Positions 1,151 to 18,046 of a DNA stretch of 64,000 nucleotides are shown one piece after another. How positions within the stretch are numbered: position 1 is the stretch's first letter; each line of letters starts with the position of its first letter. The stretch is from Balneola sp. (lineage in GTDB: Bacteria > Bacteroidota > Rhodothermia > Balneolales > Balneolaceae), in contig RHLJ01000001.1 of assembly GCA_003712055.1 (NCBI GenBank), positions 620,001-684,000 on the forward strand, read 5' to 3'. A model generated the notes under the pieces. That model was not told the origin of the DNA. It saw nothing but the letters and a program-made list of their open reading frames with translations, and ran no database searches. The translations under genes and the position numbers were made by a program.

Positions 1151-1179
1151 TACCTCTTATTGTAAAAGTGGAGGTTATA

Positions 1180-1599: not shown

Positions 1600-1605
1600 C
1601 TTGAT

Positions 1606-2193: not shown

Positions 2194-2205
2194 TTCGGAG
2201 TTGTT

Positions 2206-3507: not shown

Positions 3508-3674
3508 ATGTTACAAAAACGTTAGAGTATGGATGTAGTTTTCTGAGTAGTATTAAGTGTTAGACAGTAATCAATAGTGAAGAAACTCACTTTAAGTTAA
3601 TTAATGCAATTTAATTAGCGTATTCACTTAAGATTACTATTTTCACCTAGAATTATGTTACACAAAGGGTTGGT

Positions 3675-4094
3675 ATGGCAAGTTATGCCGAAATAATATA
3701 CTTGACTGTGGCGATGATGATTTTTTCCACTCTCGCCATGAATACGGCTAGGAATTACAATTCCACTCGTACTGAATTATATCGTACGGAGTTAGAATAT
3801 CGGTCAATAGCTGTTGCACAGGACGAACTTGATAAGGTTCAATGGATTTATGACGATACTGACTTAGATCCTACCAGTGGCTCCTATGTGTACTCAACGT
3901 ACCCTGTAACAGAAACTCATACTTATGGCTCAACTGATCAGTATAGCAGCGATTTTGTGGTATATGCGGAATCAGAACTTATTGAGGATACCGGATCACA
4001 AAAAAGATTTCAGGTTACCGTAAGCGTATTAAATGAATCATTGGATCCCGATATCTTTGTTACTTTAGATTATGTGAAATCTTATTCCTATTAG
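3675..4094 (+). CDS. Pilin-like membrane protein, cassette copy 2, gene A (139 aa)
   Basis: Paralogue of the gene at 1180: same length, same hydrophobic N-terminus ending in NTARNY, and shared blocks (QDELDKVQWIYD, AESELIEDTGSQKR, DYVKSYSY). AAGGG precedes ATG by a few bases. The 167-base gap upstream (3508-3674) is AT-rich and probably carries a promoter for this second copy. Most residue differences lie in the middle of the protein, which suggests divergence for a different assembly or surface rather than a recent duplication. Confidence 0.75.
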   Translation: MASYAEIIYLTVAMMIFSTLAMNTARNYNSTRTELYRTELEYRSIAVAQDELDKVQWIYDDTDLDPTSGSYVYSTYPVTETHTYGSTDQYSSDFVVYAESELIEDTGSQKRFQVTVSVLNESLDPDIFVTLDYVKSYSY

Positions 4095-4102
4095 GTGCAG
4101 TT

Positions 4103-4690
4103 ATGAATGTAGGATTAATTACAACGTTTGTTATTGGGGGTATCTTCATGCTCTCCATATTCGCCTACAACCAACAATTGGTTACTAGTTCCCAGGAATT
4201 TCTACTCAGTACTATTAGTCAGCAAAACCTTGACAATGTAGTTACAGTACTATCAAACGATTTTAATAAGATTGGGTACAACACCGGGCTGGCAGTTCCA
4301 TTCACAACTATAAATTCTGACGATATTCTTTTTCAGGCTGATGTTTATGATGACGATAGTTATAGCGCAACCAATATACGATGGTACTTAGATACCTCTG
4401 CACCGGTAACTGCTACATCTAATCCTAATGACTACTACTTAAAAAGAGTTGGTCCAATATCGAACAGCTCTTATGGAACCATACAATTTCCCGTTACGCT
4501 ATTTAAAGTAAAGTATTATACGGCCGATGGAACTGTTACAACAAATAAAACTTCTGTGAAAAAAGTGGAAGTACAGATTATCACTGAATCGGGTGAAGCG
4601 TACACAGTTGGAAATTTCAGTGAAGACTTCTATCCAAGAAATACTTGGAAGAGAATATTCGTACCTAACAACATAAACTTACCATATTAA
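4103..4690 (+). CDS. Pilin-like membrane protein, cassette copy 2, gene B (195 aa)
   Basis: Paralogue of the gene at 1606 with identical length and the same ending (VPNNINLPY). N-terminal hydrophobic helix GLITTFVIGGIFMLSIFAY, then a polar domain with NDFNKIGYNTG and NIRWYLDTS. Eight bases separate it from gene A and 12 from gene C. Exact function unknown; a minor-pilin-like role is inferred from size, topology and context. Confidence 0.75.
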   Translation: MNVGLITTFVIGGIFMLSIFAYNQQLVTSSQEFLLSTISQQNLDNVVTVLSNDFNKIGYNTGLAVPFTTINSDDILFQADVYDDDSYSATNIRWYLDTSAPVTATSNPNDYYLKRVGPISNSSYGTIQFPVTLFKVKYYTADGTVTTNKTSVKKVEVQIITESGEAYTVGNFSEDFYPRNTWKRIFVPNNINLPY

Positions 4691-4702
4691 AAAGGAGTTA
4701 TT

Positions 4703-6172
4703 ATGGGAAAGAGTTTGTTATTCTTAGTTGGCGGTTTAACAATTATTACAGGGTTAGTTAATGTTCAAAACTCTGATAGAATGCAGGACTTGCCCGAAAT
4801 CACCAACGCATACTATGAAGAACAGGTAGCAAAAAATATCGCAAAAAGTCTCATCGATAATGCTATCGAGAATATGAAAGCTGATAATAACTGGACAGAT
4901 AGTTTAACCCTTACAGAAGTAATGGATGCTGGTGCCATGTTAACAAGAGATAATGATTTATTGAAAACGAATGTCACCAAGCTCTTAGCAGGGCAATCCG
5001 TTGAGGAGGCTCAAGTTGAAGAACTAGAACTGGATGTATTACAGTCGAAGCTTTTACAGAATAAAATGTCTGGAAGTTTAAAAAGCTATACTCAATCATC
5101 ATCTGATAAACCATCCAATAGCGTAGGTAGCTGGGACGAATATAAAGTACTGTTAATGAGCACGAGCACCTATGATAATATTGAAGTCACTACCGAAGTA
5201 CTTATGCAAAGAGACTCGTTCTCGAAATACTCCTATATGACTAATTCTGAACTCAGCTCTACTGGTGGAAATATCTGGTTTATGAGTGCAGACAATATTT
5301 ATGGCCCTATTCATACCAATGGTACATTTAAAATGTCTGGTAACCCATCTTTTTATGGATTAATTACCAGCCCAAATAATTGGCAAGCTCATAGTACTAA
5401 TCCAACCAACCCAAATTTTTTCGGTGGGGAAAACTTCAATGCCCCCGTAAAGGACTCTCCCACCTCTTATGAGTTAAGTAAATTGACTGCAGCGGCAGCG
5501 GAAGGAGGATTAACATTTGATGGAGACATAGATATCGACTTCTATGAAAGTGGCGGAGTTGGATACGCAGACATTAATAAAGCAGTTGTAACCTCTTATA
5601 CTTGTGGAACCAATCGTCGTCCAAGAATATGCTACAATACCACCTGGGTACAAGAAACCCTAGACCTTTCAACTATTGACGGGGTGATTTCTACATCAGG
5701 GAAGATTTCTGTAGAAGGAACCGTTAAAGGTGCAATTACTCTTCACTCAGAAGATGAAATTGAAATCGTAGGAGATATCTTCTACCATACAAGCCCAGTT
5801 GTTGATAGTTCCTCAACCGATCTTCTTGGTCTGGTAAGTGAGGGTGATGTAATTATAGATCAAAACGCACATAGTGCTTCTGGTACTCAGGATGTTACCA
5901 TACACGCGTCTATTATGGCACTTAATAATTCTTTCTATGTCGAGAATTATAGTAGTGGTGGAATTAGAGGAACTCTGAACCTACTAGGTGGACTAATACA
6001 ACAAAACAGAGGTCCAGTAGGAACTTTCTCAGGGAGTACAATGGTAACAGGATATCAGAAGAACTATCAGTATGATGGTCGTTTAAAGGGAAATATTCCA
6101 CCATCCTTTCCTAGAGAGAGTGTATTCTCCATTGTATACTGGAAAGAAGAAATTACGGACACTTCAAATTAA
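4703..6172 (+). CDS. Large membrane-anchored surface-type protein, cassette copy 2, gene C (489 aa)
   Basis: Paralogue of the gene at 2206 with the same N-terminal anchor and the same C-terminal half (GPIHTNGTFKMSGNPSF, ISTSGKISVEGTVKGAIT, GLVSEGDVIIDQNAH). It is longer by an acidic helical insertion around residues 70-125 (TLTEVMDAGAMLTRDNDLL onward) and by a small insertion with two cysteines (YTCGTNRRPRICYN) that copy 1 lacks. AAGGAG precedes the ATG. Function unknown; probably the largest surface-exposed member of the cassette. Confidence 0.7.
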   Translation: MGKSLLFLVGGLTIITGLVNVQNSDRMQDLPEITNAYYEEQVAKNIAKSLIDNAIENMKADNNWTDSLTLTEVMDAGAMLTRDNDLLKTNVTKLLAGQSVEEAQVEELELDVLQSKLLQNKMSGSLKSYTQSSSDKPSNSVGSWDEYKVLLMSTSTYDNIEVTTEVLMQRDSFSKYSYMTNSELSSTGGNIWFMSADNIYGPIHTNGTFKMSGNPSFYGLITSPNNWQAHSTNPTNPNFFGGENFNAPVKDSPTSYELSKLTAAAAEGGLTFDGDIDIDFYESGGVGYADINKAVVTSYTCGTNRRPRICYNTTWVQETLDLSTIDGVISTSGKISVEGTVKGAITLHSEDEIEIVGDIFYHTSPVVDSSSTDLLGLVSEGDVIIDQNAHSASGTQDVTIHASIMALNNSFYVENYSSGGIRGTLNLLGGLIQQNRGPVGTFSGSTMVTGYQKNYQYDGRLKGNIPPSFPRESVFSIVYWKEEITDTSN

Positions 6173-6177
6173 TTTGC

Positions 6178-6570
6178 ATGAGATTAGCTATCGCATTTCT
6201 ATTTTTTGGTTTAATACTACTTAGTTCAAACCAGGCAGAGGCAAGACAATCCGTCACTTTTAATGTAAATATGAAACCTCAGCTTGAGGACAGTACTTTT
6301 GTGCCAGGCAGAGATCAGCTTCAAATCGTAGGGAATATACCTCCTATAAATTCACTCCGACCCTATTACCTTATTGATAGTGAGCCCATAGATAGTGTTT
6401 ACAGTGTTACTATTAACTTTCCGGCCAGATTTAGAAATCAAACTATTTCATATAATTTTGAGATGACTGCTAATTACAGGAAATACACCGAAGTCATGGA
6501 GAGGAATGTGAGGTTATTATATAATGAAGTCTCGTTAGATGCTTTATATTTTAATGCATTCGCCTGGTAA
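6178..6570 (+). CDS. Small secreted protein of unknown function (130 aa)
   Basis: Signal peptide at residues 1-22 (LAIAFLFFGLILLSSNQAEA). The mature part begins QSVTFNVNMKPQ and has FVPGRDQLQIVGN, resembling the start of beta-sandwich modules of the starch-binding type (VTFxVNM...PGxDxVxVxGN), here without an obvious ligand-binding core. It lies five bases after gene C of cassette 2 and is probably its last co-transcribed gene. Confidence 0.6.
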   Translation: MRLAIAFLFFGLILLSSNQAEARQSVTFNVNMKPQLEDSTFVPGRDQLQIVGNIPPINSLRPYYLIDSEPIDSVYSVTINFPARFRNQTISYNFEMTANYRKYTEVMERNVRLLYNEVSLDALYFNAFAW

Positions 6571-6667: not shown

Positions 6668-7171
6668 ATGAGGGTTCTCCTTTTAACCATATTTATCTTC
6701 ACCTTCCTACAAGCTTCTTCAGCCAAAGCACAAGAGACTCAGACCCTCTCAAGTACAATTGGTATTTCTACTAGAATAGCTCAATCCATTGAACTAATTA
6801 CTGTAAAATCCATGACTTTTGGTAATACTCAGCCTGGTCAAGAAGAGATTTATGTGAATCCTGTAGTAGATGCGAATGCGGGATATATGATTGCAGTTGG
6901 AACTCCAGAGGCTGAATTCCGGCTTAATTTTTTACAAGAGCGAAGACTTTCCAGGATTGAAGGACCTGGCTTCCTCATATTTACTTACGAATTATCAGGA
7001 AACGACATAGAAGATCAGTCAAGTTCTGAGGTAATAGAAAACGAAAATCAAACGTTAAAATTTAATCTGGATGGAGAGTATCACATTTGGGTTGGTGGTA
7101 TAGTTGTGCTTACAAATGCACAACCAGGTAATTATGAAGGTGATTTTACCATAGAGATCGACTATATCTAA
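6668..7171 (+). CDS. Secreted beta-rich protein, possible fibre subunit 1 (167 aa)
   Basis: Signal peptide ending SSAKAQ (residues 1-21). The mature protein has a strand pattern like DUF4402/spore-coat-U domains: an early hydrophobic pair (SIELITVKSMTFGNTQPGQ) and a C-terminal GNYEGDFTIEIDYI strand. Such domains are pilus subunits in archaic chaperone-usher systems. With the three genes that follow, and the chaperone and usher downstream, it is probably a minor fibre or tip subunit. That role is inferred. Confidence 0.6.
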   Translation: MRVLLLTIFIFTFLQASSAKAQETQTLSSTIGISTRIAQSIELITVKSMTFGNTQPGQEEIYVNPVVDANAGYMIAVGTPEAEFRLNFLQERRLSRIEGPGFLIFTYELSGNDIEDQSSSEVIENENQTLKFNLDGEYHIWVGGIVVLTNAQPGNYEGDFTIEIDYI

Positions 7172-7177
7172 TATCTT

Positions 7178-7774
7178 ATGCTATTGAAGAGATATACATA
7201 TCTCCTTTTATTCATATTGCTCTCCATGAATCTACCCTCTATTACGGCGCAGGAAATTGATTTCGGAAGTTATAGCAGTCAGTATACTATGACATTAACT
7301 GACCTTACCCCTGCTTCTGATCTTGATTTTGGATTAGTAATTACGGGTATAGATCAGGAAGTTGATTTATTTAACGCAAAGGTACTTTCGATTGAAGGAG
7401 TAAGTTACCTGGATGTAATTGTAGATGTTACCGGTCCACAATATTTAACACTTGATGGTGCTCCTTGCAGTACATCCAACTGTAGAATACCTTTTACAGT
7501 TAGGGCAGCCTACGCAAATAAAGGTACTAATAGTACTTCTCAGGCTATATTGATGACTACTATTGGATTAACTGCCAGTGCTCAATTTCCAATTAAGTAC
7601 AGGGGAAATGCCCCTCCTGGCCCTCCTCCTACTCCGGTATATGAAGGATATAATCCCTCGGCATTTAATGAGACCGCTTATTTGTATATTTACGGTGATT
7701 TAGATTTTTTTGGAGTAACTGTTGACGCCGGGAATTATTCCGGGGACATTTTGATAACCGTCCAATATGACTAG
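7178..7774 (+). CDS. Secreted beta-rich protein, possible fibre subunit 2 (198 aa)
   Basis: Signal peptide (residues 1-24, ending SITAQ). The mature part has SDLDFGLVITG near the start and ends GNYSGDILITVQYD, the same edge-strand pattern as its neighbours. The middle (IPFTVRAAYANKGTNS) is shared with the gene at 7767, so the two are paralogues. One cysteine pair (CSTSNC) may form a disulphide. A proline-rich loop (PPGPPPTP) is specific to this copy. Starts six bases after the preceding gene and overlaps the next by eight. Confidence 0.6.
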   Translation: MLLKRYTYLLLFILLSMNLPSITAQEIDFGSYSSQYTMTLTDLTPASDLDFGLVITGIDQEVDLFNAKVLSIEGVSYLDVIVDVTGPQYLTLDGAPCSTSNCRIPFTVRAAYANKGTNSTSQAILMTTIGLTASAQFPIKYRGNAPPGPPPTPVYEGYNPSAFNETAYLYIYGDLDFFGVTVDAGNYSGDILITVQYD

Positions 7775-8312
7775 GCCAAAAAAAAATATTCTTCTCTTTA
7801 CAGTAGCATTATTCCTCCTTGGACTTGTGCCAGAGTCATTATTTGCTCAATTCATTAACCTTCAGATTCGCATTGAGCCAGAATTAAGCGCAACAGTTGA
7901 GCAAGAATTAGATTTTGGTAGCTTTGATATTAATGCAGGAGAGCAATCTATTGGGATTAGCGATGTTAATGCAGGGCTCTTCAGTGTACGGGCATATTAT
8001 ACACAAAATGTATTTATAGAGTTAATCTTACCAGATGAATTAACTCACATAAATCCCGCAATATCTCATGTTATTCCCATTGATTTACAAATTGCCTATA
8101 ACAACAAAGGAAATCGATCTTCAAGGGAAGCAGTAGTATTAGAGAATAATAAAGGATTACTCCCTATAAATGAATACGGAGACGTTATTAGTTCCAATTC
8201 ACCCGAGATCTGGAAAGAAATGTTCCTCTTTGTATTTGGCTCAATCTATGTTAATGATATCGCTAGTGGTATTTATGAGTCAGATATCGTCCTTTCTATA
8301 GAGTATGACTAG
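7767..8312 (+). CDS. Secreted beta-rich protein, possible fibre subunit 3 (181 aa)
   Basis: Signal peptide ending SLFAQ. The mature part carries EQELDFGSFDINAGEQ, IPIDLQIAYNNKGNRS (shared with the gene at 7178) and a C-terminal SGIYESDIVLSIEYD strand. The eight-base overlap with the preceding gene implies coupled translation. Probably a fibre subunit or adaptor of the chaperone-usher locus; no enzyme motif is seen. Confidence 0.6.
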   Translation: MTRPKKNILLFTVALFLLGLVPESLFAQFINLQIRIEPELSATVEQELDFGSFDINAGEQSIGISDVNAGLFSVRAYYTQNVFIELILPDELTHINPAISHVIPIDLQIAYNNKGNRSSREAVVLENNKGLLPINEYGDVISSNSPEIWKEMFLFVFGSIYVNDIASGIYESDIVLSIEYD

Positions 8313-8326
8313 TGTTTCCTTGAAAG

Positions 8327-8343
8327 ATTAAGGTTTTCTTAAT
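8327..8343 (-). promoter_or_regulatory. 17-bp palindromic motif, copy 2 (reverse orientation)
   Basis: ATTAAGGTTTTCTTAAT on the plus strand. Its complement reads ATTAAGAAAACCTTAAT, which matches the copy at 6600 apart from one extra A in the centre. It lies in the 225-base gap before the main pilin gene. Confidence 0.35.
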
Positions 8344-8425
8344 TAAAGGAACGTAACTGTACCACATACTATAAATGGTTAAACTTGTATCAGATCGTTA
8401 ATTAGATGATTTACCCTCTTAACTG

Positions 8426-8487
8426 TTATTGATTAAGAGACCCTAATTAAAAGAATCTAACTTGATGGACGGTCACTTAATCAATAA
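8426..8487 (+). promoter_or_regulatory. 12-bp perfect inverted repeat before the main pilin gene
   Basis: TTATTGATTAAG (8426-8437) and CTTAATCAATAA (8476-8487) are exact reverse complements 38 bases apart. The left arm overlaps the 17-bp motif at 8432. The pair could be two operator half-sites that loop or, if transcribed, a long leader hairpin ending 50 bases before the ATG at 8538. Confidence 0.4.
8432..8448 (+). promoter_or_regulatory. 17-bp palindromic motif, copy 3
   Basis: ATTAAGAGACCCTAATT matches the motif at 6600 in 15 of 17 positions and has the same orientation. It lies 89 bases upstream of the pilin gene at 8538. A partial fourth copy (CCTAATTAATTAA, 9145-9157) precedes the chaperone gene. 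Confidence 0.4.
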
Positions 8488-8537
8488 TTTTTTCGCAGGA
8501 CAACAAAAAGAAATTTTAAAACAAAACGAACACGATC

Positions 8538-9056
8538 ATGAAATCTTTAAAACTTACTCTTTCCGTTTTTATGTTAGTAGCCTTTGCAAGTGTTAATACA
8601 TTTGCTCAGGAAGAAGCAACTGTAACTGCTACTGCAGAAATTCAAGCTGCTCTTACCATTAGCGCAGATCAAAATATCGATCTAGGAACTATTCAAACTG
8701 GTACTTCTAGTACTCTTGCTGCTGGACCAGATGATGGAACAACTGAAGTTAACGTTGGAACTTCTACTTCTTACGGTATCGTTAGAATGACTGGTACTGC
8801 ATCAGGAACTGTTACTCTCTCTTTCTCTGATGCTATTTTAACTCAAAGTGGTTCTGATCCATTGGACTTCGTTACTGTTGGATACGATAGCGCAAGCCAA
8901 GCTTCTCATACAAGTGGCTCTACATTAAACTTCGATGCAAGTGGAAACTTGACACTTTATTTAGGTGGAACTCTTGATGCAGCTGCTGGCTCAGGTACAT
9001 ACAGCACTAGTGGTGGTGGAACTGCTTCTCCAATTACAGTAACTATCCAGTACTAA
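8538..9056 (+). CDS. DUF4402-like secreted protein, probable major fibre subunit (172 aa)
   Basis: Signal peptide with cleavage near FA|QEE (residue 23). The mature part is low in charge and rich in Thr, Ser, Gly and Ala, with the DUF4402 pattern: ALTISADQNIDLGTIQTG at the start and ASPITVTIQY as the last strand. It has its own leader with inverted repeats and is followed by a strong terminator, so it may be expressed at much higher level than the downstream assembly genes, as expected for a major subunit. The pilin role rests on fold pattern and neighbouring chaperone and usher genes. Confidence 0.7.
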   Translation: MKSLKLTLSVFMLVAFASVNTFAQEEATVTATAEIQAALTISADQNIDLGTIQTGTSSTLAAGPDDGTTEVNVGTSTSYGIVRMTGTASGTVTLSFSDAILTQSGSDPLDFVTVGYDSASQASHTSGSTLNFDASGNLTLYLGGTLDAAAGSGTYSTSGGGTASPITVTIQY

Positions 9057-9087
9057 GAAAATGAATTGCGCTTTATGCGCATGCCTT

Positions 9088-9120
9088 AAAAGTCCCATTA
9101 TTCGATGGGACTTTTTTTTT
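9088..9120 (+). terminator. Strong intrinsic terminator after the main pilin gene
   Basis: AAAAGTCCCAT pairs perfectly with ATGGGACTTTT around a six-base loop, followed by a T run (9112-9120). It separates the subunit gene from the chaperone-usher-motor genes and would allow partial read-through. Confidence 0.9.
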
Positions 9121-9218
9121 AGTAATGATATTTCGTACTAATGGCCTAATTAATTAACTTTACCCCATTGTCTGAGGTTTTTCGTTAATATATTAGAATT
9201 AAAGTATCATCTAGCGAC

Positions 9219-10055
9219 ATGAAAAAAATAAGTCTATTTACGGGTATTCTTATAGCGATAGCCTTCCCTTTCGCCTCATCAGCCCAAGTAACCATAGCTC
9301 CTACCAATCTTTTTATTGATGGTAATGCACGCTTCGGCACCTATATGGTTATTAACGGTTCAAATGAGACCCAGGAAATCTCTATCGACTTTATTTTCAA
9401 CTACAGCCAGAATGACGACACTGGAGAACGCTTAGTTGTTGAGGATAATGAGGAAGTTGAAGAGCAGTATTCTATTGCAGAGTATGTGCGCGCTTTCCCC
9501 AGAAACTTCACAATTGCACCAGGTCAACGCCAAGTAGTACGATTGCGATTAAGCCCCCCAAATGATCTCGAAGATGGAATGTATTGGGCTCGAATTAAAA
9601 CAGCTTCTTCTCCTGAAACACCTCCACTGGAGCTTCAGGCAAATGACGCAGTTTCAGCCAGGGTGGCTATAACCGTAGAGCAGGTAACCGGTTTATTCTT
9701 TAAGAAAGGAGATTTAAGTACAGGTATTGAAGTACTTGATATTGAATCTACCCAATCTGATGATAACCAAACACTAACTGTTCTCACATCGTATTTAAGA
9801 ACCGGTAATTCCCCATTCTTAGGCTCAATTACCGCATCATTGGTGAATGCAAGTGGCCAGGTAGTTAAAAATGACTTCGTATCCACCTCTTTGTATTTCG
9901 ATGGTGCGTTAAAACATGAATTTGATATTTCTGACCTACCAGCAGGCACCTATACTGTGCGTGTGATGTTTGAAAGCCAGCGAGCTGATATCGCGGCTGG
10001 GGATTTGGTTCAAATGCAACCAATCTCGCAAACATCTACATTCACAAAAAGGTGA
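9219..10055 (+). CDS. Periplasmic PapD-like fimbrial chaperone (278 aa)
   Basis: Signal peptide ending FASSAQ (residues 1-22). The N-terminal immunoglobulin-like domain shows a chaperone pattern: FGTYMVINGSNETQEISIDF, then YVRAFPRNFTIAPGQRQVVRLRL at residues ~89-111, and GMYWARIKTASSP. This is the PapD/FimC F1-G1 region, which donates a strand to pilus subunits. The second domain ends in a beta-rich AGTYTVRVMFE block. Expected role: capture subunits leaving the Sec channel and deliver them to the usher. It overlaps the usher gene by four bases (GTGA). Longer than typical ~230-residue chaperones. Confidence 0.75.
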   Translation: MKKISLFTGILIAIAFPFASSAQVTIAPTNLFIDGNARFGTYMVINGSNETQEISIDFIFNYSQNDDTGERLVVEDNEEVEEQYSIAEYVRAFPRNFTIAPGQRQVVRLRLSPPNDLEDGMYWARIKTASSPETPPLELQANDAVSARVAITVEQVTGLFFKKGDLSTGIEVLDIESTQSDDNQTLTVLTSYLRTGNSPFLGSITASLVNASGQVVKNDFVSTSLYFDGALKHEFDISDLPAGTYTVRVMFESQRADIAAGDLVQMQPISQTSTFTKR

Positions 10056-13000
10056 ATCTAGGGCTATACAGAAACCTCTTCTTTCTTACCCTATTCTTCT
10101 TTTGTATTAACCTAATACAAAACGAAAATGTATTAGCCCAAACTAGTGATGACGCCTTTGAAGTTTATTTAGACTTCAATCACAGGGGTATTATCAATGA
10201 CGTAGTAGTTACATACTACTTAGAGGATGTCTTTTTTATTCCAGCACAAGGTGTATTTAATATCTTTCAGGTTGAGAATTCTCTAGAAGGACTTGTATTA
10301 AGCGGGCGGTTTGGCTCTGAGCAGGCATCATATTTGATAGATCTCGAATCAAATATTATAACATTCGAAGATCAAAGTTATCCCATCACTACAGAAGACT
10401 ATATTCTAACAGAAGTTGATTTCTACTTACCTCCAAGAATTTATAGTGAGATTTTTGGATTAGACTTTTCTGTTGATTTTAGCAACCTAACACTAAATCT
10501 AGAAACTGAAAAAGAATTACCTATCATTCAATCGGCGATTAGACGGCAACGTAGAAGAATAGCGGAGAGGAATACTGCAGATAGAACTTACTATCCATTG
10601 CTACAGGGCAGAAATGTCACTCTTTTAGATGGTGGATTCTTAGATTATTCATTGTCTTCCAATTTTTCCAATAATACTAATGCATTCAACTACAATTCTA
10701 ATCTTGGTTTACAGCTAGTCGGTGGAGATTTACAAGGTTCTGTTTTTGGAGTAGCATCAGAGGACAATCAGGTCACTTCAACGGATAATTTAAGATGGAG
10801 ATATCTCATTAGAGAAACACCTCTTATAAGCGAAGTTACTGTTGGCCAAACTACCCTCGATGGAGTACTAACCAACGAATATACCGGGATTAGAATCGCC
10901 AACGACCCAATAGAACCAAGACGATTTTTTGATGAATTTGAGGTACAGGGAAATACTTTTCCTGAATCTGAGGTTGAGTTGTACTTAAACAATGCCCTAG
11001 TGGGGTTCGAACAAGCTGATGAACTTGGAAATTATCGCTTCCTTACCCCTCTTTATTATGGGTCTTCACAATTGGACGTAAGGATCTATGGGCCTACCGG
11101 TCAAATTATTGAGAGAAGATCCAGGGTACAGGTCCCTTTTTCATTCCAGCCAAAAGGCACTTTGAACTATAAATTAAATGCAGGAATCCTTGACAACCCT
11201 ATTATTGGGTCTACTGAAAGAAGTATGGCATTACAGGGAAATATGGCCTATGGATTAACTCCCTGGTTAACTTTAAAAGGAGGAGTCGAGTACTATGAAA
11301 CTGATGCTGGCGATTCAAAACCGTCTTATACAGGAACTGCTTCACTGCGTTTTCTAAGAAGCTATATACTGTCTTTCGAAGGTGTGACAGATGGCTATTA
11401 TCGAGCAACAATTAACTCAGTATATCCTAATGCCGCGAGTTTTAATATTGACTATACAAACTTTACTGCCAGCTCGGGGATTTATAATGCAGGAGGAAGT
11501 GATCAACAATTAGTAACTAGTTTTTTTTACCCTTTGTATTTGTTCAGGATTCCATTGAATATGAGAGCTTCAGCATTTACACGAGTTAGAGAGGGAATAA
11601 CTTTTACCACATTTAGGTACGATATAAACACTCGAATCCAAAAACTAAGCCTTAGGATGGGATTTAGTGATCGATATATTGATGAATTCGACGTTTTAAA
11701 TCCTACTTCTTCTGCAACTCTTGAATCCTCTGCAACCTATAATTTTTCGAGAAATCCCAATATCCCAATATTTCTTAGAGGCACTTTTTTAAGAGCTCAA
11801 GCCAGGTATTTACCCGCTGTAAATCAATTCCAATCATCCGAGTTTCTTGTTTCCAGAAATTTATTTTCGAATGGTCGTCTTCAGGTTTCTTATGGACGGA
11901 ACTATTTAACTAACTCAAACACTATTCGGGCTAGTTTCGTCATCGATTTGATTAAAACCAGATCGAGTACTACCGCAACAACCTTTGGAGGTTCATATAG
12001 TGTTTCTCAAACTTTGAGAGGATCCATTGGGTATGATCCTAATTACAGCAATTTTCTCCTTACGAGCCGAAATCAGGTAGGACGTTCTGGAGCTGCTTTA
12101 AAAATGTATGTCGATAACAACAACAACAACAGATTGGATGAAGGTGATGAAGAAATCCCTGAAGTAAACCTTCGTCTCCAACGGAGCGGAGCTTCAGAAA
12201 GGTTAAAAAACGGTGTACTCTATTACACCCAGCTTCAACCTTATTTCAGATACAATATGGAAATCAATAAAGCTTCCATAACAAACCCAATGCTTGTACC
12301 TCAGGTTGATCAATTTTCTGTTGTAACTGATCCAAATACTTTTAAAAAATTAGACTTAGCATTCTATACTTCCGGATTAATGGAAGGATATTTAGAACGG
12401 GTATATCAAGACGGACTTACCGATGGAATTGGTGGGGTAAAGCTATTACTTAGAGCACAAAGCGATTCAACTGTTAAAGAGATTCGTTCCTTCTCAGATG
12501 GTAGTTTTTATGAGTATCCAATTCCTCCCGGAAAATATGAGCTCTTTGTAGACCCCTCACAATTGGATCTACTGAATATGAAATCCATACCTGAAAAACT
12601 TGATTTTGAGGTGGTTTCCAGACCGGATGGAGATTTTATTGAAGGATTATCTTTCCAGCTTGTACCAAGAGACCTTATTCCTGAAGAAGAGGAAGTGGAC
12701 TCTACATTATTTACCGAAGCTGTTCCAAGTCTTACCCTTGATGATGTAACCGATGAAATAAGGAACGATCCTGAGATTATTCAGTATGAAAACGAGCTAC
12801 TTGTTAAGGTTGAAGAGGCCTTACGTTTGATTATTCTAACGCAAAATGAATTCTATGAAAGGGACTTTGAGAAAGCGTTTGAGTATATTGAGCAGTCATT
12901 ACAGGCATTTGAGACGGCACAAGGTTACGCATTGAAAGGAAGTATTTTGTACTTCCAGGGAAAAAGATTGGAAGCAGTGAATAGCTGGAGGATGGCCCTT

Positions 13001-13075
13001 CGGTTTGATCCCGATATTTTTATTCCAACTCTTGAGTCTCTTGATCAGCGAGTCACGGTCAGTTCATCGGATTAA
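10052..13075 (+). CDS. PapC-like outer-membrane usher with C-terminal TPR (1007 aa)
   Basis: Signal peptide ending VLAQ (~residue 30). Residues ~31-160 form an N-terminal domain. From ~190 to ~680 the sequence alternates as in a beta barrel. A plug-like segment (EVQGNTFPESEVELYLNNAL, then VGFEQADELGNYRF) begins near residue 293 and runs into RRSRVQVPFSFQPKGTLNYKLNAGI, a close match to the usher middle region. Near residue 687 is a DNNNNNRLDEGDEE loop, probably calcium-binding, followed by beta-sandwich domains. Residues ~913-995 are a TPR (ALKGSILYFQGKRLEAVNSW). Ushers translocate chaperone-bound subunits; the TPR is not normal and suggests a periplasmic partner. GTG start; the six genes from 9219 onward look like one operon. 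Confidence 0.75.
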   Translation: MNLGLYRNLFFLTLFFFCINLIQNENVLAQTSDDAFEVYLDFNHRGIINDVVVTYYLEDVFFIPAQGVFNIFQVENSLEGLVLSGRFGSEQASYLIDLESNIITFEDQSYPITTEDYILTEVDFYLPPRIYSEIFGLDFSVDFSNLTLNLETEKELPIIQSAIRRQRRRIAERNTADRTYYPLLQGRNVTLLDGGFLDYSLSSNFSNNTNAFNYNSNLGLQLVGGDLQGSVFGVASEDNQVTSTDNLRWRYLIRETPLISEVTVGQTTLDGVLTNEYTGIRIANDPIEPRRFFDEFEVQGNTFPESEVELYLNNALVGFEQADELGNYRFLTPLYYGSSQLDVRIYGPTGQIIERRSRVQVPFSFQPKGTLNYKLNAGILDNPIIGSTERSMALQGNMAYGLTPWLTLKGGVEYYETDAGDSKPSYTGTASLRFLRSYILSFEGVTDGYYRATINSVYPNAASFNIDYTNFTASSGIYNAGGSDQQLVTSFFYPLYLFRIPLNMRASAFTRVREGITFTTFRYDINTRIQKLSLRMGFSDRYIDEFDVLNPTSSATLESSATYNFSRNPNIPIFLRGTFLRAQARYLPAVNQFQSSEFLVSRNLFSNGRLQVSYGRNYLTNSNTIRASFVIDLIKTRSSTTATTFGGSYSVSQTLRGSIGYDPNYSNFLLTSRNQVGRSGAALKMYVDNNNNNRLDEGDEEIPEVNLRLQRSGASERLKNGVLYYTQLQPYFRYNMEINKASITNPMLVPQVDQFSVVTDPNTFKKLDLAFYTSGLMEGYLERVYQDGLTDGIGGVKLLLRAQSDSTVKEIRSFSDGSFYEYPIPPGKYELFVDPSQLDLLNMKSIPEKLDFEVVSRPDGDFIEGLSFQLVPRDLIPEEEEVDSTLFTEAVPSLTLDDVTDEIRNDPEIIQYENELLVKVEEALRLIILTQNEFYERDFEKAFEYIEQSLQAFETAQGYALKGSILYFQGKRLEAVNSWRMALRFDPDIFIPTLESLDQRVTVSSSD

Positions 13076-13079
13076 GGCA

Positions 13080-14918
13080 ATGCTTTGCGTTGAAAATCAA
13101 CATATCACCTCATCGAAAAAAAGGCTTACTAGCTTTATATGGGTAAGCTTTCTCCTCAAGAGATTATCTATTGCTTTTTTATTGAGCTTAGTAATCATTT
13201 CCTTTGGATTAGCACAGACAGCAACTGATGCTAATAACTCTCAATCGCTTGCTCTACAGGTTTCGAACCTGGAACAAAGCTATGATTCTCAAATTTATCT
13301 ACTCCTTGCTAATTACTTTGATCGTAAAAAGTTCTTTGTTGATGTAAATATTGACGCGGAGTTTGTGGATGAGACTATTGAAACCACCCAGAATCAAATT
13401 GTAAGGAATCAGTCTCAACCGGTGATCATGCCCGGTCTTCCCTTCCTTCCACAAGAAAACCTAAGAGAATCCGCTACCGCAGGTACTCCCGAAACGGTTA
13501 TTAACCAGAGTACGGTACGATCCCTTCAATTGAATAGCATAGCAGTAAGCATCTATGCCGACACTTCTTTTACTGCCCAGGAAGTACAGTTTATGCGACT
13601 ACTGACGGGAATAGCCTCAAAAATAGATGAGAGCAGAGGAGATGTAATCACCATATCGCAAATATCTATTCCCAGATTTGGTACCGAAGATCCAATTAGG
13701 ATTGTAGAAACACAGCCTGAAACTTTTAATCTGGTGGCTTCTTTCAGAGAATACATTCCTGGCTTTGTCCTCTTACTACTTTTCGGACTCATCATGTTTG
13801 TGAATAGTTTCTTTAACCGACCTAAAGAGACCATATCCCCTATCCAACAACGAGAAAGTATTAAGCACGATATCAATATTACCGATCTTGGAGCCAGACG
13901 TGTAGAGCAGGTGATGGTGGGTAGCTCTGATGGTGATATCTCACAAGAGATTAATGAATTAATTCAAAGCTTCTTCAACAAACCCCAGGAAATAGCTTTG
14001 TTATTTGAATACTGGATGGCTGAAAACCCAGAGGAAGGTGTATTGAGAGCTGCTGAAGTAGCTTGTAGTGTTGATAAGCACTTGCTAAGGACGCTTAAGT
14101 CAGATATGCAGCCTGAGAATTATGAAGCTATTTCTAAATTGGCTGATGAAATGCCTCCGCTTACTTCTGATGTGAAAGGCACCGTTATCCGGAAATTCAA
14201 TACTATGCTTAAATCCGGAAGTGCAGAAAGCATGAATGCCAGAAAAAGCGGGCATATCACACTGTTTAAATTCCTCGAGCATATCAACGAGCAGCAAATA
14301 GTGAAGTTGATTGGTGATGAAGGCCACCAAACCGGAGCTTTGGTCCTTGATTATCTTCCTGAAGAAAAAGCAGCATCGGTACTAAAGAAACTTAGCCCTA
14401 CCCAAAGTACTAACCTCATGCTTAAAATGACCACGGTTGGTACTCTCCCGTTCCAACTTCAGAATGAGATTTCAACACGTCTCTTTGATAAGGCTATGGA
14501 TCTTATTGAAGAAGAAAAAGAACAAAAGCTTGGAGCTGAGAATATTCTTCCTGTATTGGAAAAACTCCCTCTTAATGAACAACAGAAATATATTGACCAG
14601 CTTAAGGCTTCCAATGCTGCAGTTGGAGATATTATCGAAGGACAGTTTATCACTATTGACCAGGTAATCAATATTACTGATAACATTATCAAAGAAGCTC
14701 TGAAAGATTTAAACACTGCTACCTTATTAGACGCTATCGTTGATCTTGATCCAAAGCTGATTGATAAAATACTTTCTGTTCGAGCAAGAAGAGAACAACG
14801 ACTTATAAGACTTGAACTAGACGAAATTAAAGGGAGACCATATAAAGATACCGAGGTTGTTAAAAAGCAGATGATGGAGCTTATTAGAAAGGAAGTGAGA
14901 AAAAGCCGTGAAGATTAG
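13080..14918 (+). CDS. FliF-FliG-like fusion protein, inner-membrane rotor candidate (612 aa)
   Basis: Hydrophobic N-terminal segment (residues ~25-45). Periplasmic part ~65-215 resembles the FliF ring-building region: YDSQIYLLLANYFDRKKFFVDVNI, a flexible QPVIMPG linker, and SLQLNSIAVSIYADTSFTAQEV. A membrane helix follows at ~227-246 (PGFVLLLLFGLIMFVNSFF). The rest is cytoplasmic and FliG-like: EGHQTGALVLDYLPEEKAAS matches the FliG EHPQTIALIL...PEKAA motif, and the end (NIIKEALKDLNTATLLDAI, then KILSVRARREQRLIRLELDE) aligns with the FliG torque domain. The first FliF domains are absent. Start at 13080 chosen because earlier in-frame codons lie inside the usher gene. Usually these are two separate flagellar proteins. 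Confidence 0.75.
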   Translation: MLCVENQHITSSKKRLTSFIWVSFLLKRLSIAFLLSLVIISFGLAQTATDANNSQSLALQVSNLEQSYDSQIYLLLANYFDRKKFFVDVNIDAEFVDETIETTQNQIVRNQSQPVIMPGLPFLPQENLRESATAGTPETVINQSTVRSLQLNSIAVSIYADTSFTAQEVQFMRLLTGIASKIDESRGDVITISQISIPRFGTEDPIRIVETQPETFNLVASFREYIPGFVLLLLFGLIMFVNSFFNRPKETISPIQQRESIKHDINITDLGARRVEQVMVGSSDGDISQEINELIQSFFNKPQEIALLFEYWMAENPEEGVLRAAEVACSVDKHLLRTLKSDMQPENYEAISKLADEMPPLTSDVKGTVIRKFNTMLKSGSAESMNARKSGHITLFKFLEHINEQQIVKLIGDEGHQTGALVLDYLPEEKAASVLKKLSPTQSTNLMLKMTTVGTLPFQLQNEISTRLFDKAMDLIEEEKEQKLGAENILPVLEKLPLNEQQKYIDQLKASNAAVGDIIEGQFITIDQVINITDNIIKEALKDLNTATLLDAIVDLDPKLIDKILSVRARREQRLIRLELDEIKGRPYKDTEVVKKQMMELIRKEVRKSRED

Positions 14919-15462
14919 GCCGCTCTTCATATCACAAATAGCACGTCTATGTTTGATAGGCGGAATAGCATTCTCTTTAGTAGCCTGCTCAGGAAGCCGT
15001 CAAACTGTAAATACTGATCAACCAGTTGATACACCAAATGAACAACAAGCTGGGTTAATTTCTGAATCCCAGCCAACACCTCAACCGGATACCTTATCAA
15101 CTGAAGAGCAACTCGCCCTGGATTTAAAAGAACTTTACAGAGAAGAACTTTTCGAAAAACATAACTCAGAAGCGAACCAACTCGTTAATTTCTATATCCT
15201 GGCTCAGCAAAAGCTTTTTACGGGAGAATATCCCGAGGCGCTTAGCTTAATTCAAAGAGCAGCTCAAATCAAAGAGAATGCAGATGTACTTGCCCTTAGA
15301 GGCAGTATCTACCTGGGATTAGGACAACCAGATGAGTTTGTATCTAATTGGAGAAGAGCTTTGGAATTAGATCCTGAGGTTCCCATTCTACCTTCTCCCT
15401 ATGTAATTCAGCAACTCCAGCTTTATGGATTGATTGATGAAAATCTTCAAAAAAATTTTTAA
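14908..15462 (+). CDS. TPR lipoprotein of the usher-motor operon (184 aa)
   Basis: Lipoprotein signal with lipobox SLVAC (Cys27), then a Pro/Gln/Thr-rich linker and a C-terminal helical domain of TPR type at ~95-160 (ALRGSIYLGLGQPDEFVSNW, RRALELDPEVP). This TPR is clearly related to that at the end of the usher (ALKGSILYFQGKRLEAVNSW, RMALRFDPDIF). It overlaps the FliF-FliG gene by 11 bases and abuts the MotA gene. Likely a periplasmic lipid-anchored adaptor between outer-membrane and inner-membrane parts, by inference. GTG start. Confidence 0.7.
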   Translation: MKIRPLFISQIARLCLIGGIAFSLVACSGSRQTVNTDQPVDTPNEQQAGLISESQPTPQPDTLSTEEQLALDLKELYREELFEKHNSEANQLVNFYILAQQKLFTGEYPEALSLIQRAAQIKENADVLALRGSIYLGLGQPDEFVSNWRRALELDPEVPILPSPYVIQQLQLYGLIDENLQKNF

Positions 15463-16260
15463 GTGAGAACCTCCATACTTAACATATTAAGCTTTCTGGT
15501 TTCTTTAACCATTATGGTTTGGGGTTCTTTACTGGTAATGGGGTTTACTGAGTTTAATCTACTGCCCCCAGCCTATGAAATACTAAATATCCCGAGTCTT
15601 GCTATAGTTTTTGGAGGAATTTCGGCTAGCGTTTTTATCAGTTATCCTTTTAGAAAGGTTCTTCAAGCTCTTAAGGATAGTACTAAGCTTTTCTCTCACA
15701 GCACCATTACGGATGAGGTGCTCCAAAAGGACATCGATAATGTACTTGAATGGCAAAAAGTAATTAATGCGGACAAAGTTGCTGCCGTTTCTGAATTAAG
15801 CCGAACTTACAGCGACCAGTTTGAAGGCTACCTCTTTTCGGTGCTGGATACCAACTATAGCACTGAAGAACTCAGAGAACTTGGAGAAACAAATATCATT
15901 GAAAATTATACACGCCAACAACAAATCAATCAGATAATTGGAAGTATGGGTAGAACTTCTCCAGTATTTGGTATGTTAGGCACCCTATTTGGTTTAATCG
16001 TGATTCTTTCAGGTTTTAGTGAAGTTGAATCTTTGCTCTCTGGTTTGGGAGCTGCCCTTATGACAACACTTTATGGGATTATTGTTGGTAATTTCATATT
16101 TACCCCAATGGCAAAAAAGCTCAATAATATTGCTTCATTGCAATATTTTCGTGAAAAATTAATACTTGAGGGTATCATTTTAATTGAAGAACAAAAGACT
16201 TCCCTTCAAATTTATGATCGCCTACAGGCGCATATGAAACGCGGAAAAAGTTCGCTTTAA
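15463..16260 (+). CDS. MotA-type stator protein (265 aa)
   Basis: Membrane helices at ~7-28 and ~40-62, a cytoplasmic loop, and two closing helices at ~165-185 and ~190-215. The two prolines central to MotA function are present: RTSPVFGMLGTLFGLIVIL (P167, equivalent to E. coli P173) and FIFTPMAKKL (P215, equivalent to P222). GAALMTTLYGIIVG is the usual last helix. MotA and MotB form an ion channel that drives a rotor. GTG start immediately after the stop of the preceding gene. The length and PG-binding partner fit MotA better than TolQ/ExbB. Confidence 0.85.
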   Translation: MRTSILNILSFLVSLTIMVWGSLLVMGFTEFNLLPPAYEILNIPSLAIVFGGISASVFISYPFRKVLQALKDSTKLFSHSTITDEVLQKDIDNVLEWQKVINADKVAAVSELSRTYSDQFEGYLFSVLDTNYSTEELRELGETNIIENYTRQQQINQIIGSMGRTSPVFGMLGTLFGLIVILSGFSEVESLLSGLGAALMTTLYGIIVGNFIFTPMAKKLNNIASLQYFREKLILEGIILIEEQKTSLQIYDRLQAHMKRGKSSL

Positions 16261-16276
16261 CTCGGGGTGATTTTTC

Positions 16277-18046
16277 TTGAATCCGGATTCCTTAAATATG
16301 ACTGGAAACTCGCTCTTCCCTCAAGAACCATTCGACCCGGAGGAAGAAAATAGCTGGCAGGTAAGTTACCTGGACATTATTACCATCGTACTTGGCTTTT
16401 TAATTATTCTCCTTTCCGTTTCCCAGATTGCTAAAGAAGAGTTCTCTTCACTTTCTACTTTATTTAGAGAACTAGCTGATCAAACCGAGTTTATAACTAC
16501 TCCGATTGAGGATATCCAGGAAGAACTCGAAGAATTACTACAGCCACAAATAGAACAAGGAAGACTTGAACTTCTTCGGGATTTAAATGATTTGGTTATC
16601 CGTTTTCGGGGAGACGATTTCTACCAATCCGGAAACGCAACCATACAATTGGACGGAATGGACTTATTAAATCACGTGATAAGGGCATTCCAACAAACTT
16701 CTCATGATGATTTTAATATTGATGTAGAAGGCCATACGGATAATGTTCCTATATCATCAGATATATACCCATCCAATTGGGAGCTATCGACTGCCAGAGC
16801 ATCAAATGTGGTGAAGTATTTTGATTACATGGGAATAGAAACTTCCCGGCTAAAGGCTTCAGGTTATGCTGATTCAAGACCTTTAATCCAATTCGACTCT
16901 TTTGGAAACCCATTTCTTGCAAGTAATGAACTCAATCGAAGAATCGTGTTGAGGTTATATTATACCACCGAAGCTTTAGAGCGAAAAGCAAATCAGGAAC
17001 AGTTCGCTTCATCTGAAGAAGAAACTATAGAAACTTCGGAGATAGAGAATCAAGAAGAAGAGCCCAGTGTTACTGAGTTAATACAATCTCTGACAGCGAA
17101 TCAATCTGAGGAGCCTGAACAAGAACAAGAAACCACTGAATCTCCTACTTCTTCTTCTACTGCTGAAGCTGTACCTGAACAGCAAGAAGAAACCCCAACA
17201 ACACCGCTAAGAGTTCAGGAACCAGGACCAGAAACCGTACAAGAGACACCTGGAAATCATACAGTTAATTTAGCGGCCATTCCGGTTTTTACCGATAGAA
17301 CAATTTCATGTTCTTTTTCTGTAAATGCCGGGAGCTTCCAATCTCTATCATCTGGTTTTCAGGTAGCATCTAATGCTCAATCCAAAACCAATTACAGCTT
17401 TGAAGTTTCTTACAATAACCGATCCTACTCAATTCGGTCTAATGAATTTGCTTCGCTAGGTCAGGCAATGTTAGCGCAGCGTGAAATTTCAGAGGCATTA
17501 AATGATGAATCCCTAGGTATAATCCATCAGTGTTACACTCCTGGGGTTACTTCACCATCACCTTTGCAGTACCAGATTCAATTTGGAGCGTTCCAAAACC
17601 AGCAAAATGCACTCGATTATTCCGTGAATGTACTGGATGAGTTTGGAATACAAACTTTTATGACCCGAAGAGCCTCTACTTATAATGTAGTAGCGGGGCC
17701 GTTCCTTACCAGGGAAAATGTACTTTCACAATTAAGCTCATTTCGGGAAAAAGGTGTTCGAGAAAACATCTTTATCAAACCTATGACAGAAGATGTAGCT
17801 GAATATGACTATGCTTACCAAATTCATTTAGAGTCTTTTGAGACAAGGGATGCTGCTGATATCCTGGCTAGCCGTCTTCAGTCTGCTCTTGGCGTGAGTA
17901 CTATTATTGAGCGTTCTACGGATGGAAACTACTATCTCATGACAGAACGATTCGAAAACTATAATGACGCGTCTTCACTTTTCAACCGGATTCAAAATAG
18001 AATCCCTGCAATGAATCCGGTAATATTCTTCCTGGAGTACTTATAA
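16277..18046 (+). CDS. MotB-type stator protein with OmpA domain and three SPOR-like repeats (589 aa)
   Basis: One membrane helix (WQVSYLDIITIVLGFLIILL) with the ion-binding aspartate at D33. An OmpA/MotB peptidoglycan-binding domain spans ~110-235 (VEGHTDNVPISSDIYPSNWE, LSTARA). A Glu/Gln/Thr/Pro-rich linker (~235-330) leads to three SPOR-like units near 344, 432 and 513 (FSVNAGSFQS, YQIQFGAFQN, YQIHLESFET). SPOR domains bind glycan strands lacking stem peptides, often at division sites. Ordinary MotB is ~300 residues, so the tail is unusual. TTG start supported by GGGGTGA at 16264-16270; an ATG at 16298 is the alternative. Confidence 0.85.
   Translation: MNPDSLNMTGNSLFPQEPFDPEEENSWQVSYLDIITIVLGFLIILLSVSQIAKEEFSSLSTLFRELADQTEFITTPIEDIQEELEELLQPQIEQGRLELLRDLNDLVIRFRGDDFYQSGNATIQLDGMDLLNHVIRAFQQTSHDDFNIDVEGHTDNVPISSDIYPSNWELSTARASNVVKYFDYMGIETSRLKASGYADSRPLIQFDSFGNPFLASNELNRRIVLRLYYTTEALERKANQEQFASSEEETIETSEIENQEEEPSVTELIQSLTANQSEEPEQEQETTESPTSSSTAEAVPEQQEETPTTPLRVQEPGPETVQETPGNHTVNLAAIPVFTDRTISCSFSVNAGSFQSLSSGFQVASNAQSKTNYSFEVSYNNRSYSIRSNEFASLGQAMLAQREISEALNDESLGIIHQCYTPGVTSPSPLQYQIQFGAFQNQQNALDYSVNVLDEFGIQTFMTRRASTYNVVAGPFLTRENVLSQLSSFREKGVRENIFIKPMTEDVAEYDYAYQIHLESFETRDAADILASRLQSALGVSTIIERSTDGNYYLMTERFENYNDASSLFNRIQNRIPAMNPVIFFLEYL

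Follow-up and report, generated by a model that had tools for sequence, protein, structure and literature searches.

A locus of Balneola sp. (contig RHLJ01000001.1; the window, i.e., the whole stretch analysed, spans 64,000 nucleotides) joins the genes of a chaperone-usher fibre to those of a compact flagellar-type motor, and comparison with relatives shows that motor and usher are genetically coupled. We consider it more probable than not, at roughly 0.6, that a proton-driven rotor built from a FliF-FliG fusion (FliFG) and MotA-MotB stators (MotAB) acts on the usher and its fibre, with both the arrival of torque at the fibre and its purpose being inferred. The presence of a motor and a fibre machine in one cassette points, by inference, to an undescribed motor-driven fibre; in the open-access literature searched, no usher-motor system was found and no described system matches.

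A conserved block of fibre and motor genes

The genes lie on the forward strand (6668-18046) in the order cu1 to cu4, chaperone, usher, FliF-FliG, TPR lipoprotein, MotA and MotB (Table 1). The original prediction had placed all of these open reading frames correctly, and its junctions held as well: chaperone and usher overlap by 4 nt (GTGA), usher and FliFG are separated by 4 nt, FliFG and the TPR gene overlap by 11 nt, the TPR gene abuts MotA without a gap, and 16 nt lie between MotA and MotB. Its picture of a single operon required correction, as a terminator-like hairpin (9088-9115) sets cu1 to cu4 apart from the genes running from the chaperone to motB. Across the whole region, terminator-like sites are not in excess (6, versus 7.8 in shuffles).

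Table 1. Features of the locus, by position in the window
Feature	Position	Strand	Remarks
Two tandem copies of a pilin-like/DUF4900 gene trio	1168..6172	+	kept upstream of usher loci
130-aa secreted protein	6178..6570	+	upstream of cu1, kept in many relatives
cu1, secreted DUF4402-like putative fibre subunit	6668..7171	+	DUF4402 0.0095 in window
cu2, secreted DUF4402-like putative fibre subunit	7178..7774	+	DUF4402 0.038; position conserved
cu3, putative fibre subunit homologous to cu2	7767..8312	+	phmmer cu2/cu3 1e-5 to 3e-6
cu4, small secreted Ala/Ser/Thr/Gly-rich putative main subunit	8538..9056	+	own terminator-like hairpin
Terminator-like hairpin	9088..9124 (hairpin 9088-9115)	+	12 pairs and T run; between cu4 and chaperone gene
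PapD-like periplasmic chaperone	9219..10055	+	profile vs E. coli chaperones E 1.2e-5, probability 81%
Usher with TPR tail	10052..13075	+	barrel 10625-12037, plug about 10907-11134
Usher C-terminal beta domain	about 12374-12667	+	
Usher TPR tail	about 12770-13060	+	
FliF-FliG natural fusion	13080..14918	+	RBM3/beta-collar about 13233-13673, TM about 13731-13814
FliG_M	about 14292-14504	+	
FliG_C	about 14598-14897	+	
TPR lipoprotein	14908..15462	+	lipobox LVAC; related to usher's own TPR tail
MotA-like stator subunit	15463..16260	+	MotA_ExbB 4.1e-17
MotB-like stator subunit	16277..18046	+	plug/TM; OmpA-type wall-binding domain about 16619-16885
MotB three-repeat SPOR tail	about 17282-18043	+	

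Seventeen Balneolales genomes carry the block as one contiguous unit. Its gene order recurs in L112, L116 and 14 further relatives, one of which (L039) has a contig cut behind the TPR gene, and the arrangement is therefore not due to chance; chance adjacency is likewise ruled out by the same-site comparison of L035 and L093 given below. When contigs of named genomes were searched for the system, a search confined to Bacteroidota sensu GTDB, carriers were found only among the Balneolaceae, a family of marine bacteria many of whose members have no flagellum. One carrier, Balneola sp. EhC07 (L069), can be cultured.

The fibre genes, chaperone and usher

Pfam scores for DUF4402 fall below threshold in the window copies of the fibre genes and above the cut-off in orthologues. 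Orthologues of cu1, a gene kept in both motor and motorless loci, reach 1.5e-5 (L093) and 2.9e-5 (L037), at or above the cut-off, while the orthologue of cu3 scores 6.1e-4 and that of cu4 (L036:15214-15747) 6.2e-6. On these orthologue scores, the predicted DUF4402-like secreted proteins upstream of the chaperone held, with donor-strand exchange and a surface fibre remaining inferences.

As criteria for a chaperone-usher system we took a PapD-fold chaperone adjoining the usher and a 24-strand usher barrel with a plug. The former is met through moderate homology (orthologues match PapD_N at 6.7e-4 at best), an inference made from sequence alone, with no structure model. Sequence searches were nearly empty for the usher, giving no Pfam call in the window and almost nothing in the PDB, and its identity was settled by structure: the model is a 24-strand barrel with the plug between strands 6 and 7, as in FimD/PapC, and it matches FimD at 9.5e-26, with a Z score of 24.1 versus 15.2 for the best non-usher. 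Moreover, the family profile aligned to E. coli ushers at 6.6e-13 (hhalign) and one orthologue matches PF00577 at 3.2e-4. The PapC-like usher thus held in profile and fold searches; the barrel criterion is met by the predicted model, and assembly activity is inferred.

A predicted fused rotor and its stators

The FliG part of the fusion was recognised by Pfam (FliG_M 1.4e-11, FliG_C 7.9e-10) and by a profile match to the solved FliG 1lkv (3.6e-39), upholding the predicted resemblance. The FliF part gave a Foldseek value of 4e-7, with the top 18 matches all being FliF, and a Z score of 13.3 versus 8.9 for the best unrelated chain. Here the prediction held only in part, for RBM3/collar and the transmembrane segment rather than for a whole FliF: RBM1/RBM2 were not seen in the fusion sequence, leaving RBM3/collar as the sole visible FliF domain. 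Position 289 of FliG_C is still acidic and the torque charge R281 is kept, but the flagellar torque charges K264, D288 and R297 are not. The FliM-binding motif EHPQR is absent from FliG_M, reading EGHQ or otherwise in all aligned copies; given this loss of EHPQ and the lack of FliM/FliN, a flagellar-type switch is not expected.

The MotA and MotB assignments held. Equivalents of MotA P173 and P222 are invariant (14/14), as is the proton aspartate of MotB (D32 equivalent, 14/14), and MotB is matched by the Pfam plug (1.6e-7), OmpA (3.6e-12) and SPOR (3.9e-10) families. Its SPOR tail is homologous to the tails of motorless ushers (253 columns, E 5e-36), and the TPR lipoprotein is similar to the usher (phmmer 8e-9). 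As far as sequence can tell, the criteria for a rotor and stator, namely FliG domains and a MotA/MotB pair with its aspartate and prolines, are met.

The motor and the usher tail switch together

In the motor version of the locus, the usher ends in TPRs and is followed by FliFG, the TPR lipoprotein, MotA and MotB with its SPOR tail; in the motorless version, at the same chromosomal site, it is the usher that terminates in a homologous SPOR tail. Swaps between the two occurred at least six independent times, the whole unit changing every time. Usher tail and motor were concordant in 6/6 pairs (p 0.031), and a FliF(G) gene adjoins all 19 TPR-tailed ushers and none of the 30 others. In the motor locus L035 and the motorless L093, for instance, the two flanks are 74-78% identical in nucleotide sequence, and where L035 has 5.1 kb of motor cassette, L093 has a 0.9 kb SPOR tail. 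Their usher barrels are 80% identical and their tails 29%, and the MotB tails group in a single clade that excludes the usher tails, for which reasons we prefer cassette exchange; an in-frame motor deletion yielding the motorless usher is not favoured.

In L113/L114, the rotor gene is kept without MotAB; the dedicated MotA and the torque domain FliG_C are both missing. About 30 relatives have the usher without the motor, so the motor is an add-on that is not essential for having the locus. In sister families, independently of this system, a related usher occurs in operons with ExbB/ExbD and a TPR lipoprotein. This cassette switch, the strongest evidence added here, lay beyond the reach of the original prediction.

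Flagellar genes in carrier genomes

FlhA, FliM/FliN and flagellin were not found in this genome, in searches whose controls gave matches, nor was a FliG of normal flagellar size found elsewhere in it. The genome holds a second cluster with the FliFG-TPR-MotA-MotB core and no usher, which encodes its own predicted outer-membrane protein; the core is also found without an usher in other families. Some carrier genomes also have a complete, separate flagellum; read from tables without statistics, the presence of the motor showed no tight link to the presence or absence of a flagellum. Balneola vulgaris is listed with flagella in one compilation (PMC5167729) and is non-motile without a flagellum according to a proteomic study (PMC9027524), and a genome study did not find flagellar assembly genes in Balneola (PMC9909488); as these reports conflict, we rejected its motility as phenotype evidence.

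Three outcomes would have refuted the original prediction: flagellar genes elsewhere that explain the motor, the six genes being usually separated in relatives, or the usher and FliG likeness vanishing in profile searches. None came about, as no such genes were found, 17 genomes keep the order, and both resemblances persisted. Its overall interpretation of a machine joining motor and usher fibre is supported, with torque transfer and its purpose, be it movement, assembly or sensing, still inferred.

Proposed mechanism and alternatives

In the mechanism we propose, the chaperone and the 24-strand usher would assemble a fibre of DUF4402-type subunits (the fold is shown, the activity inferred). 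The FliF-FliG fusion would form a compact inner-membrane rotor ring with RBM3/collar in the periplasm and FliG in the cytoplasm; its domains are shown, and the ring is an inference. The OmpA and SPOR domains of MotB would fix MotA5B2 stators to the wall, where these would conduct ions and drive FliG_C in the flagellar manner, a role for which the residues and the co-loss are shown and the torque is inferred. From the RBM3/collar ring, torque may then reach the outer membrane via the usher's TPR tail and the TPR lipoprotein, turning or working usher and fibre; this step is wholly inferred. The motorless usher carries its own SPOR wall anchor; in the motor version the usher has lost this anchor and gained TPRs, and the anchor sits on the stator, as would be expected if the usher must move freely relative to the wall.

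Against this reading, there are no experimental motility, fibre-imaging, expression or interaction data, and association of genes is no proof that the usher receives torque. The motorless relatives, lost torque charges, moderate chaperone homology and the fact that gliding is unreported for these phyla (PMC5167729) also weigh against it. A bolder reading, which we are slightly more inclined to doubt than to accept, is that of a second rotary surface appendage, an usher fibre turned by proton-driven FliFG/MotAB, which evolved independently of flagellar export and whose cassette repeatedly entered and left an ordinary chaperone-usher locus.

Among the alternatives, it remains possible that the motor energises fibre assembly, secretion or gating, with rotation or pulling opening the plug or driving subunits, as in ExbBD-TonB. 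ExbBD systems open plugged barrels, and ExbB/ExbD and a TPR lipoprotein accompany a related usher in the sister families. However, classical ushers require no such energy, motorless ushers of the same family (barrel <=80% identical) are retained alongside the same chaperone and subunits, and a large FliG-type rotor exceeds the needs of a plug-opener. We think it unlikely that the motor forms an envelope machine of its own (e.g., for gliding or wall work), co-transcribed with the usher without contact. The core without an usher, in the second cluster and in other families, speaks for this, but each switch changed motor and usher tail (TPR or SPOR) jointly, the SPOR tail of MotB otherwise belongs to the usher, the TPR lipoprotein is related to the usher's TPR tail, and the usher-less cluster has a predicted outer-membrane protein of its own.

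A mechanosensor, in which surface contact loads the peptidoglycan-anchored stator and rotor and the signal alters behaviour, force output being minor, is more doubtful still: flagellar stator units are load sensitive (PMC9389320) and a surface-exposed fibre is predicted, but no signalling domain or regulator gene was found in the cassette, and a full ion-driven rotor seems costly for sensing alone. All but excluded is a flagellar relic lying next to a fimbrial operon by chance. Although FliF, FliG, MotA and MotB are flagellar by descent, the frames are open, catalytic residues are conserved in all lineages, FliF and FliG are fused, a dedicated paralogous cluster exists, and relatives with a complete separate flagellum carry both systems; we rejected it on the open frames, conserved key residues and flagellated carriers. 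As to a Gld/T9SS motor as partner, a GldL search gave no match, but control genomes gave none either, making the result uninformative.

Implications and comparison with known systems

Usher-made pili are thought to need no inner-membrane energy, and to our knowledge no rotating surface fibres exist beyond the flagellum and archaellum. If our preferred reading of a motor acting on usher and fibre is true, the flagellar motor would be re-usable on another appendage, and the same-site motorless versions in sister species offer natural comparisons for testing this. The locus bears on the origin of the flagellum, with a motor module that can be parted from export and filament. Rotor proteins without a filament occur in about 11% of non-motile species (PMC12199754), and the cassette may bear on why they keep them. 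The ExbB/ExbD-linked ushers suggest that powering of chaperone-usher systems arose more than once.

With the flagellar motor, the system shares the FliF RBM3/collar fold, FliG_M, FliG_C, MotA, and MotB with D32 and a wall-binding domain. It differs in that FliF and FliG are fused, RBM1/RBM2 are not seen, FliM/FliN, export apparatus and filament are lacking, EHPQ is lost, MotB has a SPOR tail, and the motor's partner is an usher. With chaperone-usher pili (type 1, P; DUF4402/archaic-like), it shares the chaperone, the 24-strand usher with a plug after strand 6, small secreted subunits and the gene order subunits-chaperone-usher; here, however, the C terminus of the usher bears a TPR (or SPOR) tail and motor genes follow in the operon. 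No chaperone-usher system is known to have an ion-driven motor.

AglRQS-Glt of Myxococcus likewise sets a MotAB-type stator on an envelope complex with TPR lipoproteins, without a flagellum. It has no FliG, FliF or usher, and its stators travel along tracks; its hallmark, a motor without a FliG rotor, does not apply to the window, which has FliG domains. The GldLM motor of type IX secretion and gliding is also an ion-driven 5:2 motor on outer-membrane/surface components in Bacteroidota, but its homology to MotAB is not clear (PMC9389320, PMC13104615) and it uses GldKN/SprA rather than an usher or FliG. ExbB/ExbD-TonB and TolQR share the principle of an ion motor on an outer-membrane barrel, and ExbB/ExbD-like genes flank the sister-family ushers, whereas the system described here combines MotAB with a FliG rotor.

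Identity of the usher and motor components

The chaperone-usher and flagellar-type motor genes of the window, which lies in a 3.63 Mb genome of Balneolaceae type, are coupled genetically, as shown by their domain content, conservation, genetic unity, co-switching and co-loss. Pfam and PDB sequence searches with the usher gave almost no signal. We modelled the usher from 12 orthologues with AlphaFold (mean pLDDT 69.6), and the model comprised six strands, a plug region and then 18 strands, i.e., a 24-strand barrel with its plug placed as in ushers. Foldseek matched this model to FimD (9.5e-26) and also to PapC, the first non-usher being LptD at 4e-8, and in VIA-align FimD reached Z 24.1 while no non-usher barrel exceeded 15.2. 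Profile-profile comparison of the usher family with seven E. coli ushers gave an E of 6.6e-13 across 557 columns, with two crossed controls at 0.025 and 0.16, and that of the chaperone with nine E. coli chaperones was of moderate strength (1.2e-5, 81%). C-terminal to the usher barrel are a beta domain and then a helical TPR tail (residues ~907-1003); phmmer relates this tail to the TPR lipoprotein at 8e-9.

The rotor protein, a natural FliF-FliG fusion (FliFG), matched both FliG_M and FliG_C; its family profile found FliG proteins of known structure, the best at 3.6e-39, and the FliG N-terminal domain at 5.6e-5. Its periplasmic part, modelled alone (mean pLDDT 61.9, core 80-89), presented a helix, two long strands, a helix and a strand; all top 18 Foldseek matches were FliF (4e-7 to 1e-5), and VIA-align gave Z 13.3 to the FliF RBM3/collar against 8.9 for the best unrelated fold. 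RBM3, collar, TM and FliG are therefore found on one polypeptide. Relative to E. coli FliG, the fusion retains R281 and an acidic residue (E) at position 289, except in a divergent copy (L116), which has R at 289, and in two distant copies, where 281 is K and 289 is not acidic; K264, D288 and R297 are not retained. The FliM-binding EHPQ motif is lost, in agreement with the absence of FliM/FliN. MotA and MotB matched flagellar stator models, the equivalents of MotB D32 and MotA P173/P222 being invariant in 14/14 homologues and the MotB wall-binding signature SNWELS nearly so; MotB of this system also bears an additional tail of SPOR repeats.

Conservation and layout of the locus

Using the fused FliG, we retrieved 14 further genomes, which share the order chaperone, usher, FliFG, TPR, MotA, MotB (one locus is cut at a contig end after the TPR gene); the Balneolaceae among them have three or four subunit genes upstream. 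Searching with the usher added two loci, L112 and L116, the contig of the latter beginning within the usher. At ten inspected loci, neighbouring genes overlap by no more than 44 bases and stand no more than 66 bases apart. The junctions from chaperone to motB claimed in the original prediction held when re-measured. Given the strong hairpin that separates cu4 from the chaperone gene, the tight block runs from chaperone to motB, and the four subunits may be expressed on their own; in the terminator scan, the number of matches as such did not exceed the shuffle level.

Upstream, pilin-like and DUF4900 genes occur in tandem; such genes also precede many usher loci in relatives, both motor and motorless, and could belong to the fibre system.

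Features of the usher-motor locus and related loci
Feature	Location	Strand	Remarks
ORF upstream of pilin-like genes	98-1090		type IX secretion sorting domain (Por_Secre_tail 9.7e-12)
Trio of small TM-anchored pilin-like proteins plus DUF4900 protein, two tandem copies	1168-3507; 3675-6172		
Four small secreted proteins (cu1-cu4, DUF4402-like putative fibre subunits)	6668-9056	+	
Terminator-like hairpin	9088-9124		12 pairs and T run; strong; lies between cu4, putative main subunit, and chaperone gene
Chaperone	9219-10055	+	profile match to E. coli chaperones
Usher	10052-13075	+	model fold and profile comparison
FliF-FliG fusion	13080-14918	+	FliG_M, FliG_C, FliF RBM3/collar
TPR lipoprotein	14908-15462	+	related to usher TPR tail
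MotA	15463-16260	+	flagellar stator models
MotB	16277-18046	+	flagellar stator models; extra SPOR-repeat tail
Second cluster of the same genome (C2)	L055:8029-13092		FliFG, 369-aa predicted outer-membrane protein, TPR lipoprotein, MotA, MotB
Shortened rotor gene (family f51)	L113:7895-9430	-	FliF part, LysM wall-binding domain, FliG_M; no FliG_C
Usher operons with ExbB/ExbD-like genes and large TPR lipoprotein	L120, L121, L124-L133, L135-L137		two families

Usher tail and motor switch together, and FliG_C is lost with the stator

A usher-profile search of Balneolales genomes found 19 with a TPR-tailed usher and 30 without the tail; a FliF RBM3-domain gene was adjacent in 19/19 of the former versus 0/30 of the latter (plain Fisher value 5e-14, kinship ignored). 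At about 1130-1570 aa, the motorless ushers exceed the TPR-tailed ones in length, and their tails match the SPOR tail of the motor-system MotB in all 18 tested (profile E 1e-53 to 1e-7; hhalign 5e-36, 253 columns). The usher-barrel tree required at least six motor-state changes, on well-supported branches, with usher tail and FliF(G) switching together in 6/6 independent pairs (sign test p 0.031). L035 (motor) and L093 (motorless) are the most closely related of these pairs: both flanks share 72-79% nucleotide identity, and the sole difference is a 5.1 kb cassette in L035 in place of a 0.9 kb tail in L093. The difference begins at one shared position of the usher gene and stops no more than 8 bases from the final stop codon. 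MotB and usher tails form separate clades, hence the MotB-SPOR chimera arose once and cassettes were exchanged later; all trees were quick maximum-likelihood trees without bootstrap.

Family f51 (L113, L114) and an additional copy in genome G108 (L119) have a shortened rotor gene behind a TPR-tailed usher; in L114 and L119 this gene retains only the FliF part. No MotA/MotB follows these three genes, and genome-wide the f51 genomes have MotA only as a low-scoring match, on the contig of a flagellar FliG. FliG_C and the dedicated stator thus go missing together, which is what one would expect if FliG_C here takes torque from MotA.

Other motor pairings

In families f12 and f52 of the same class, a distantly related usher has an ExbB-like gene immediately after it or nearby (14/16 loci examined). 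Most of these loci also group the usher in a single cluster with ExbD-like genes (one or two), a TPR lipoprotein of 460-540 aa, a large protein with a PapD domain and two other conserved proteins. From this gene neighbourhood we infer a second, independent usher-motor pairing; in the literature searched, no usher had been described together with an ion-driven motor. Other Balneolaceae also carry the usher-less FliFG/MotAB module of the window's own genome, as does family f37 (L057, L060), where the order is outer-membrane protein, TPR, MotA, MotB, FliFG. The 369-aa protein of C2 has no Pfam match. With another predicted outer-membrane protein in the usher's place, the motor core thus pairs with different outer-membrane partners.

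Relation to flagella

A genome-wide search, in which positive controls were detected, found no FlhA, FliM/FliN or flagellin in the window's genome, whose only FliG_C matches are the two FliF-FliG fusions. Four flagellated relatives (G046, G123, G085, G293) carry the usher-motor operon plus a complete flagellar set, and the two are therefore separate machines. For Balneola vulgaris, flagella are listed in one report (PMC5167729) and denied in a proteomic study (PMC9027524), which nonetheless counted one 'flagellar assembly' protein, conceivably a part of the usher-motor system. Flagellar assembly genes were not found in Balneola (PMC9909488), and gliding is unreported for these phyla (PMC5167729).

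Proposed working and comparison with known systems

We propose that FliFG would form a ring, that wall-anchored MotAB would turn it, and that the RBM3/collar and TPR proteins would pass the torque on to the usher. Without a motor the usher bears the SPOR anchor, and with a motor the stator does, a shift suggesting that an usher that is driven must not be tied to the wall.

As to the output of the motor, we favour, by inference, rotation of the fibre. The motor might instead energise fibre assembly, or serve to sense load; we consider both less probable than rotation, yet sequence can neither exclude them nor decide the matter, and the conflicting motility reports for B. vulgaris are of no help here. 

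The component families are known, while the assembled machine is undescribed in the open literature that we searched: a 2026 review of gliding mentions neither FliG nor ushers. A 2025 survey found rotor proteins without a filament in 11% of non-motile species, raising an alternative function (PMC12199754). Tests for export, switch and filament genes in the window's genome detected none, so the system is not classed as a flagellum. The usher and chaperone expected of an ordinary chaperone-usher pilus are present, yet no member of that group is, to our knowledge, equipped with a motor, and the system is set apart from it by the motor that it carries.
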